Shown here piece by piece: positions 16,065 to 18,110 of a DNA stretch of 41,877 bases (positions within the stretch are counted from its first letter, which is position 1; the number at the start of each line of letters is the position of its first letter). The DNA is from Deltaproteobacteria bacterium RIFCSPLOWO2_12_FULL_60_19. Its GTDB lineage: Bacteria > Desulfobacterota > Binatia > UBA9968. The position numbers and the translations under genes were made by a program. The stretch is from positions 1 to 41,877 of the forward strand of contig MGSS01000136.1 in assembly GCA_001798595.1 (NCBI GenBank). Direction: 5' to 3'. The notes under the pieces are model-generated. The model had not been told where the DNA came from and ran no database searches. It saw only the letters and a program-made list of their open reading frames with translations.

Positions 16065-16469
16065 ATGAACAAGTTCTTGATTTCGCTCGCGGTTGTATCG
16101 CTGATCGCTATTCCAGGCGCGGTCTCGTTTTCCCAGCAGCATGAAATGCAAAAACCGCCCGCCAAGGAGGGGCCGGGAGCGGCCGGCGGGGAGATGTCTT
16201 CGGGCCACACGATGGGGATGATGCATCCAATGGCGGGCATGATGCGTCCAATGCAAGGAATGGCGTGCCCGATGATGGGGATGCCGGGATCGGGCGGGAT
16301 GCAGGGAGGAATGATGGGCGGCATGATGGGCCGGATGATGCAGGGCATGGCCGGCAGCGACCCGAAAATGATGGGCCGGATGATGGAGATGCGCGGCGAG
16401 ATGCTGATGAAGATCGGCGAAGTCATGATGAAGCACGCCAAGATGTGGCAGCAGGAGAGCGCGAAGTAA
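16065..16469 (+). CDS. Exported methionine-rich protein (MrpX-like)
   Basis: A 134-residue protein with a Sec-type signal peptide ([21 protein letters not shown], roughly 3-23). The mature part of about 110 residues contains 31 Met, arranged as repeated GMM, GRMM and PM units, with only one Cys. Its gene is 11 bases upstream of msrP. In Azospira the methionine-rich protein MrpX encoded with yedY1/msrP acts as a sacrificial scavenger of hypochlorite that is re-reduced by MsrP; this gene has the same composition and position. A copper-binding role is the main alternative, since Met clusters also bind Cu(I), but no copper enzymes are adjacent. Confidence 0.8.
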
Positions 16470-16480
16470 GAGGTGCAAAG

Positions 16481-17440
16481 ATGCTGATTAGAAATGCGCC
16501 CGATATCAAATCCTCCGAGATCACGGATAAAAGTCTTTATTTAAGCCGGCGTAAATTTCTGCTGGCGGGATCGGCATCTCTGGCGTCCCTCGCCGCGGGA
16601 GCCGCGCCGGCTTGGCTGAGCGGCGTGGACGAAGCCTACGCCGGAACAAAACTCCCCGGCGTGCAAAAGAGCCGGCTCAGCACGGGCGAGCCGCTCAACT
16701 CCTTCAAAGACATCACCACCTACAACAACTTCTACGAGTTCGGCACCGACAAGGACGACCCCGCGCAATACGCCAAGACGCTCGTGACGCGCCCCTGGAC
16801 GGTGGCGGTGGAGGGCGAAGTGAAGCGCCCGAAAATCTATGGCATCGACGAGTTGATGAAGCTAAGCCCGCTGGAGGAAAGAATTTACCGGCTGCGCTGC
16901 GTCGAGGCCTGGTCGATGGTGATTCCCTGGGTGGGCTTTCCGCTGAGCGCGCTGATCAAACGCGTGGAGCCGACCTCGAAGGCGAAGTACGTCGAATTTC
17001 TCACGCTGCACGATCCCAAGCAGATGCCGGGGCAGCGCCGGGGAGTTTTGGAATGGCCCTACGTCGAAGGCTTGAGGATGGATGAGGCGGCGCACCCGCT
17101 GGCGATCCTGGCCGTCGGCCTCTACGGCGAAGTCCTGCCGAATCAGAACGGCGCGCCGCTCCGTCTGGTGGTGCCGTGGAAGTACGGCTTTAAGAGCATC
17201 AAGTCGATCGTGAAAATCCGTTTTGTCGAAAATCAGCCCGCGACGAGCTGGATGAAGGCGAACCCGAGCGAGTACGGCTTTTATTCCAACGTCAACCCCG
17301 ACGTGGACCATCCCCGCTGGAGCCAGGCGCGCGAGCGGCGCATCCCGGAGTTCACCAAGCGCAAGACGCTCATGTTCAACGGCTACGGCGACCAGGTCGC
17401 GCAGCTCTACAGCGGCATGGATCTCCGCAAATACATCTAA
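16481..17440 (+). CDS. msrP: Protein-methionine-sulfoxide reductase, Mo subunit
   Basis: A 319-residue periplasmic molybdopterin enzyme that reduces methionine sulfoxide in envelope proteins, taking electrons from MsrQ. The Tat signal is clear ([11 protein letters not shown] at 23-24). The sulfite-oxidase-like domain carries the Mo-ligating C140 in [33 protein letters not shown] and [20 protein letters not shown] are also strongly MsrP-like. The ATG at 16481 is chosen because it begins immediately before the Tat motif and follows AGGTG; the frame extends upstream through the Met-rich gene as shadow only. Confidence 0.96.
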
Positions 17441-17498
17441 TTTTGAATTTCGAACGATGAGCTTTGAATTCAAAATTAAAAATTCGCAATTCAAAATT
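17439..17498. repeat. Heptamer-iterated hairpin spanning the msrQ start
   Basis: Four heptamers run in phase from 17441 (TTTTGAA, TTTCGAA, CGATGAG, CTTTGAA), followed from 17469 by TTCAAAA, TTAAAAA, TTCGCAA, TTCAAAA. The outer arms (17439-17452 and 17485-17498) pair in 13 of 14 positions; TTTGAATTCAAA (17463-17474) is a perfect palindrome. The AT-rich element contains the msrQ start codon and encodes its first residues. Confidence 0.7.
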
Positions 17499-18110
17499 TT
17501 AAAGGCAGCGGCCTTCGCCGCCTGCTCGATCCCGCTGGCGCTGCTCATCTACAACGGCTACACGGACGGGCTCGGCGTCAACCCGATCGAAACCATCACC
17601 CGCTCGACCGGCAAATGGACGCTTATTTTTCTGCTTATCACGCTCGGTGTGACGCCGCTGCGCAGGATCACGGGTTGGCAGTGGCTGATTAAGTTCCGCC
17701 GCATGCTCGGCCTGTACGCCTTCTTCTGTGCCCTGCTCCACTTCACCACCTACATCTGGCTCGATCAGTTTTTCGATCTTATGGAAATCGCCAAAGATAT
17801 TCCCAAGCGCCCGTTCATCACCGTAGGCTTCGCGAGTTTTGTATTGTTAATTCCGCTCGCGGTCACTTCGACGAGCGGCATGGTGAGGCGCTTGGGAAAA
17901 CGCTGGCAGCAGCTCCACCGGCTGATCTACCTGATCGCTATCGGCGGAGTGATTCATTACCTCTGGCTGGTGAAAGCCGACACGAGAAAGCCGCTCATCT
18001 ACGGCGCGATTTTGGGAGCGCTGCTCGGCTATCGCCTGCTGGCAAAATGGCGCGTTGGAGAATTTTTCGCCAGGAGATTTGCCCTCTCTCCAGCAGCAAA
18101 AGAAGAATAA
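17457..18110 (+). CDS. msrQ: MsrPQ haem-binding membrane subunit
   Basis: A 217-residue inner-membrane cytochrome b-like protein (ferric-reductase-like transmembrane fold) that passes quinol- or flavin-derived electrons to MsrP. About six hydrophobic helices are seen, with likely haem-binding histidines in ALLHFTTYIW and in QQLHRLIYLIAIGGVIHYLW. The segment TRSTGKWTLIFLLITLGVTPLRR is characteristic. The only usable start is ATG 17457, 16 bases after msrP. The first 15 or so residues (MSFEFKIKNSQFKIL) come from an AT-rich repeat and look added to the normal N-terminus. Confidence 0.94.
   Translation: MSFEFKIKNSQFKILKAAAFAACSIPLALLIYNGYTDGLGVNPIETITRSTGKWTLIFLLITLGVTPLRRITGWQWLIKFRRMLGLYAFFCALLHFTTYIWLDQFFDLMEIAKDIPKRPFITVGFASFVLLIPLAVTSTSGMVRRLGKRWQQLHRLIYLIAIGGVIHYLWLVKADTRKPLIYGAILGALLGYRLLAKWRVGEFFARRFALSPAAKEE

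Follow-up and report, generated by a model that had tools for sequence, protein, structure and literature searches.

In Azospira suillum PS, MrpX and YedY1 (Melnyk 2015) are described as a hypochlorite-scavenging pair (passages of PMC5748585). In Brucella melitensis, the MXKDX repeat protein BcrX is under an ECF sigma factor and is co-encoded with homologues of MsrQ and MsrP in the order X-Q-P (passages of PMC8315932). In Escherichia coli, MsrP renews the Met ligands of CusF, which serves the Cus pump as a Cu(I) chaperone and has four Met residues in its mature form (passages of PMC9302797), and the two-component system HprSR controls msrPQ (passages of PMC10151825). Among the literature matches listed for msrP-linked Met-rich peptides, in the passages available, there are only examples of the Azospira and Brucella types, and the family analyzed here was not found described beside msrP.

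The window, the whole stretch of 41,877 nucleotides analyzed here (contig MGSS01000136.1), encodes a small exported Met-rich protein together with MsrP and MsrQ. This composition is like that of MrpX-YedY1 and of BcrXQP, but the order is Met-rich-P-Q instead of X-Q-P (passages of PMC8315932). Unlike MrpX as it is described, the window protein is a Gly/Met chain with a CPMM motif and a C-terminal helix, and no ECF sigma or anti-sigma gene is seen nearby. Like CusF (passages of PMC9302797), it is proposed to be a periplasmic protein whose Met residues are renewed by MsrP; unlike CusF, it is predicted to be mostly disordered.

The Met-rich gene and its locus

The features of the locus are listed in Table 1. 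The Met-rich open reading frame (ORF) encodes 134 residues, of which 32 are Met, more than a quarter of the protein; 31 of them lie within the 111 residues past residue 23. There are one Cys (residue 68), four His, four GMM motifs, and two GRMM motifs. By eye, a Sec signal peptide can be recognized at the N-terminus (25 letters, not shown), and AGGAGG, also recognized by eye, stands just 5' of the ATG. The GC contents at the three codon positions (0.55/0.44/0.81) match those of msrP (0.57/0.42/0.82), and homologues elsewhere retain the signal, the CPMM motif, and the C-terminal blocks. The ORF is thus a real gene. Two long open frames opposite or across it, 15999-16478 (-) and 16265-17440 (+), appear to be by-products of its ATG-rich repeats rather than genes.

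Table 1. Features of the msrP locus in the window.
Feature	Position	Strand	Basis and remarks
mutY-like gene (HhH-GPD + NUDIX_4)	14163..15212	+	Pfam; syntenic in family relatives; upstream anchor of conserved locus
mtgA-like monofunctional transglycosylase gene	15209..15991	+	Start approximate; overlaps mutY; Pfam Transgly on ORF 14927-15991
Gap between mtgA and Met-rich gene, including AGGAGG ribosome-binding site	15992..16064	+	Sequence; 73 bp
Met-rich exported protein	16065..16469	+	Signal peptide ~1-23, Gly/Met linker, CPMM 68-71, Met-rich helix 100-133
msrP, molybdopterin methionine-sulfoxide reductase	16481..17440	+	NCBIfam NF003767; Tat-type N-terminus (SRRKF)
msrQ, haem membrane subunit	17457..18110	+	NCBIfam NF003831

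AlphaFold predicted the Met-rich protein with a mean pLDDT of 60. The middle is disordered, and the sole confident part is a C-terminal helix at residues ~100-130. No family match was found in Pfam (E 0.1) or NCBIfam (E 1), and the best match among solved structures (E 0.48) was dismissed as chance.

The genes form a same-strand row with gaps of 73 bp between mtgA and the Met-rich gene, 11 bp between the Met-rich gene and msrP, and 16 bp between msrP and msrQ, which directly follows. The MsrP and MsrQ equivalogs scored 487 bits (cut-off 207) and 192 bits (cut-off 130), respectively, and MsrP is the sole PF00174 match at E<=0.001 in the window's genome. The last 260 residues of the mtgA-like gene are syntenic in family relatives. 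Crude scans of the + strand called no terminator-like site in 15735-18110 and no sigma-70-like promoter in 15200-18700. By eye, the ORFs of at least 60 aa in 13000-21500 include no sigma or anti-sigma gene, and neither do the ORFs listed elsewhere in the window (at least 170 or at least 200 aa). Two-component genes are absent from the mtgA-msrP slot. Just 3' of msrQ, 18263-18964 (-) carries genes for a PIN-domain and a MazE-like protein, likely a toxin-antitoxin pair.

A sequence-only reading of this locus had described an exported protein with 31 Met residues encoded 11 bp before msrP and followed by msrQ, with GMM and GRMM repeats and without the sigma/anti-sigma genes. The ORF, the spacing, and the NCBIfam scores bear out the first part, the repeats are present in the numbers given above, and the absence agrees with the inspection of 13000-21500.

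Distribution of the Met-rich family

A profile search, in which the profile includes the window protein itself, found the Met-rich family in 17 of the 148 class genomes, six from the window's own taxonomic family and 11 from another. One further relative is on a contig of a Rokubacteria metagenome-assembled genome (MAG). There were no plasmid relatives at 1e-3, and a match in G032 (E 9e-4), interrupted by internal stops, was treated as chance. One of the six own-family genomes, G012, is the MAG Deltaproteobacteria bacterium RIFCSPLOWO2_02_56_12 (100% identity over 6,691 bp to contig MGRY01000019.1), which places the window's organism in the same family as that MAG.

The eight aligned members have in common a signal peptide, a linker of Gly, Met, and Pro, and, at the C-terminus, a block around a conserved stretch (24 protein letters, not shown). 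The C-terminal helix follows the pattern DPK..GRM..RGE..GE..K..K, which the window protein fits, and CPMM is present in seven of the eight. Since the helix is kept in the family and CPMM is kept in the window's branch, the protein is more than a random Met tract. The members read from the second taxonomic family do not have CPMM, yet keep a Cys inside the Met-rich stretch, as do all seven divergent members without CPMM that were picked by script. They therefore form a divergent branch. In a single comparison, with G009, the 36 codons of the C-terminal block showed nine synonymous and nine non-synonymous differences, numbers that by themselves say little about selection.

The genome G009 also contains, at L063:1143-8478, a second small Met-rich exported protein, a redoxin, a SHOCT protein, a Met-rich cytochrome c, a BNR-like protein, the CPMM protein, and a copper-type P-type ATPase. 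Judged from its gene content, this cluster looks like a metal-resistance island.

The family is not tied to msrP. MsrP was found at E<=1e-60 in 53 of the 148 class genomes (56 matches), and upstream of these 56 matches the Met-rich family is present at the window locus only. Conversely, MsrP is not matched at the same threshold in 13 of the 17 genomes that carry the family. These are all 11 genomes of the divergent branch plus G009 and G012, whose completeness is 80 and 87%. Among the six own-family carriers, all of the CPMM type, four have an MsrP match: the window's genome, G003, G022, and G004, where the gene is cut. In G004 (L152), msrP matches over 130 aa only, from about residue 187, and looks N-terminally truncated, with mutY, mtgA, and msrQ in place. 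Around the other members of the family, neither msrP nor msrQ was found in the fetched stretches, some of which cover a few kb only; the member in G099 is at the end of its contig and has little flanking sequence.

A coupling of the Met-rich gene to msrP throughout the family was therefore rejected: in the stretches read, the gene stands beside msrP in one of the 17 family genomes. This outcome counts against the sequence-only reading, which had itself named a lack of conservation beside msrP in relatives as its refuting condition. As there is no same-genus genome among the relatives searched, the pairing rests on one genome. The msrP link belongs to one sequenced genome and, as a trend, to the slot, and not to the Met-rich family.

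The mtgA-msrP slot and its contents

The slot was compared in 15 msrP stretches of the window's taxonomic family and one of a sister family (G025). Three more divergent stretches of the family, in which other genes precede msrP (G015:C18, G021:C185, and G017:C18), were left out. Twelve of the 16, among them the window, have the order mutY-mtgA-slot-msrP; of the other four, L145 and L149 begin too near msrP, and different genes precede msrP in L146 and L154. Of the 12 ordered loci, 11 have msrQ after msrP, and in the remaining one (G022) the contig ends in msrP.

The contents of the slot vary. In G006 (L139), genes for a response regulator and a histidine kinase share it with one for an exported Met-rich peptide of 87 aa, and an ECF sigma gene and a zf-HC2 gene come right after msrQ. 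In G022 (L140), a similar two-component pair is followed by an exported Met/Lys-rich peptide of 93 aa and by a fragment that resembles a peroxidase-related enzyme but scored below the cut-off of the model. The response regulators and the histidine kinases of the two genomes are 78 and 70% identical, respectively, and lie between mtgA and the Met-rich peptide. This arrangement, directly upstream, recalls HprSR (passages of PMC10151825) and is not seen at the window's slot. The Met-rich slot genes of G006 and G022 are unrelated in sequence to the window gene.

A redoxin or its remnants precede msrP in six genomes (G008, G011, G013, G015, G017, and G020). The redoxin is split over two frames in G013 and G017, and that of G011 is cut by the contig end. 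The slot of G016 (C38) is empty and that of G004 is short; in G003, G005, and G010, no intact Met-rich or redoxin gene was recognized in the slot.

In the MsrP tree, nine other rows of the family form a supported group (99/97), and the window, G006, G022, G004, G016, and G025 fall outside it. The redoxin slot is found in six of the nine rows inside the group, but also in G025, and the Met-rich slots are all outside. The tree is compatible with one origin of the three Met-rich slots but does not show it. Redoxin was detected at E<=1e-25 in eight of 25 family genomes and in none of the three with a Met-rich slot gene. A mutual exclusion of redoxin and Met-rich genes was rejected as not significant (~0.3, by our own arithmetic).

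The secreted-looking redoxin beside msrPQ has an in-frame TGA as the first codon of CxxC (FWTYG-TGA-INC) at each of the five loci with a recognized motif. The TGA-redoxin loci are L008, L009, L011, L014, and L022 among the msrP loci, and L143, L144, L146, L148, and L149 among the wider loci. A class-wide search gave at least 15 redoxin matches with one in-frame TGA, all from the window's order, with the TGA position checked in four; the remaining matches listed have no internal stop. SelB-like genes above the cut-off are present in 20 of 25 family genomes, including the window's. From the sequence, the gene likely encodes a selenocysteine redoxin linked to MsrPQ.

Exported Met-rich genes upstream of msrP were then counted with a crude script for signal peptides and Met content, which required at least 10% Met and at least six Met residues after residue 22, and a length of at most 220. 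The scan covered 1.3 kb upstream of the 56 class msrP genes (71,678 bp, with some stretches shortened by contig ends). There were seven raw matches. Four of them, from one genus (L016, L018, L021, and L023), were removed as shadows opposite a long ORF that is 87-100% identical between loci. The three genuine genes (the window, G006, and G022) are all between mtgA and msrP, and the other 53 of the 56 loci have no such gene upstream. In the control, 40 stretches (717,847 bp) from 21 class genomes, which are not matched one-to-one with the msrP genomes and do not include G006 and G022, no exported Met-rich gene was found, with no raw match to drop. Counting the window would be circular, as it is the finding itself. 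Without it, two of 55 loci are genuine, or two in ~70 kb versus none in 718 kb, which is still improbable as a chance result (~0.008 by our own arithmetic, with small numbers).

Elsewhere in the phylum, one of ten loci has a Met-rich gene, after three of the 13 loci L074-L086 were left out as repeats of class loci. It encodes an 85-aa Met/Lys-rich protein in G384, ~140 bp before msrP. Among plasmids, one of 12 msrP loci has such a gene (Paracoccus pAMI4), with a sigma-70 factor gene and a DUF1109 gene alongside. Met-rich ORFs in L081, L091, and L093 (a downstream repeat frame, an antisense frame, and coxA) failed the export/Met test. On the Sulfurospirillum plasmid pSulSP, msrP is directly preceded by a two-component system and the gene of an exported protein of 73 aa rich in Cys, Met, and Lys (L096:383-604); the protein has a weak, below-cut-off likeness to HvfA metallophore precursors.

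These class, phylum, and plasmid counts indicate that unrelated exported Met-rich genes recur beside msrP, but that most msrP loci do not have them.

It is conceivable, and we put it forward tentatively, that the slot is an exchange site for envelope oxidant-handling partners of MsrPQ: a thioredoxin-like protein, likely with selenocysteine, in one branch, and unrelated Met-rich sinks, with or without two-component genes, in the other. If this is true, MsrPQ would have partners that can replace one another, with the selenocysteine redoxin as an unrecognized functional counterpart of MrpX-like scavengers.

Methionine sink, copper binding, or chance

With a probability a little above even, we read the window protein as a Met-rich envelope protein that may bind Cu(I) and is encoded beside msrPQ, which would renew its methionines. 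A small, exported, flexible Met/Gly chain with a terminal Met-rich helix would be produced along with MsrP and MsrQ. In the envelope, the numerous exposed Met residues of this chain would capture oxidant, bind Cu(I), or do both. MsrQ would feed MsrP from the quinone pool, and MsrP would reduce methionine sulfoxide, making the Met-rich protein reusable. We infer that the gene is co-transcribed with msrPQ and that its product is a substrate of MsrP and an oxidant sink; the renewal of oxidized Met by MsrPQ is drawn from the analogy with MrpX-YedY1, BcrX-BcrQP, and MsrP-CusF. The position directly before msrPQ and the enrichment at the slot favor the scavenger linked to MsrPQ that the sequence-only reading had proposed, but the family is not bound to msrP. 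On another view, the Met-rich gene is mobile or drifting, came to lie in the mtgA-msrP slot by chance, and is not functionally connected to MsrPQ. Such chance placement is improbable. It would explain why the family was found beside msrP in the window's genome only and why the slot content is unstable in the taxonomic family, being a redoxin, two-component genes, or nothing. However, unrelated Met-rich exported genes occupy the same slot in two relatives while control DNA has none, and the window gene stands in a tight same-strand row, 11 bp from msrP and with its own ribosome-binding site.

The protein could instead be mainly a Cu(I)/Ag(I)-binding sponge or chaperone of the envelope, where MsrPQ would only protect the metal-binding Met residues and oxidant scavenging would not be its job. 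We regard this exclusive role as possible but rather unlikely. Cu(I) binding is nevertheless a serious alternative or additional role, given the relatives without MsrP, the kept Cys, and the G009 cluster with its copper-type P-type ATPase. The family is found mostly without MsrP, and a Cys is kept either in CPMM (seven of eight aligned) or elsewhere in the Met-rich stretch (seven of seven divergent members). The G009 member lies 1.2 kb from the gene of the ATPase, a weak neighborhood clue from one relative; this ATPase has YHS and heavy-metal-binding domains and scored 618 bits against the copper-ATPase subfamily cut-off of 397. The window's genome has a copper-type ATPase too, but on another contig, and CusF of E. 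coli is a precedent (passages of PMC9302797). On the other hand, no copper gene stands out by eye among the window ORFs listed, and the neighbors of other members are varied: sulfur-transport and GDT1 genes by Pfam, and secretion, RND pump, and ABC genes by eye. Far less probable than either of these alternatives is membership in the MrpX/MXKDX family of hypochlorite scavengers with loss of the sigma/anti-sigma genes. The idea of the composition and the neighbor are the same, and G006, of the same taxonomic family, has the ECF sigma and zf-HC2 genes. Against it, TIGR02953 (penta_MxKDx) matched nothing in the window's genome at E<=1, in a search that had no positive control, as none of its 14 control genomes passed the cut-off; there is no Pfam or NCBIfam match, the sequence relatives form a different family, and the Lys-rich repeats of G022 and G384 are absent from the window protein. 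MXKDX/MrpX membership was rejected on these Pfam, NCBIfam, and TIGR02953 results, MrpX itself being considered from its description. As the window protein has no match to the MXKDX model, the earlier description of the locus as an independent version is a fair one.

If the favored reading, a Met-rich protein renewed by MsrPQ, is correct, the window would contain a second type of Met-rich MsrPQ partner, outside the Azospira and Brucella examples described. Met-rich relatives are present in genomes without MsrP as well, so that experiments on the family may distinguish copper binding from oxidant scavenging. Unrelated Met-rich partners repeatedly found at the same spot would make the regenerable methionine sponge a more general strategy.
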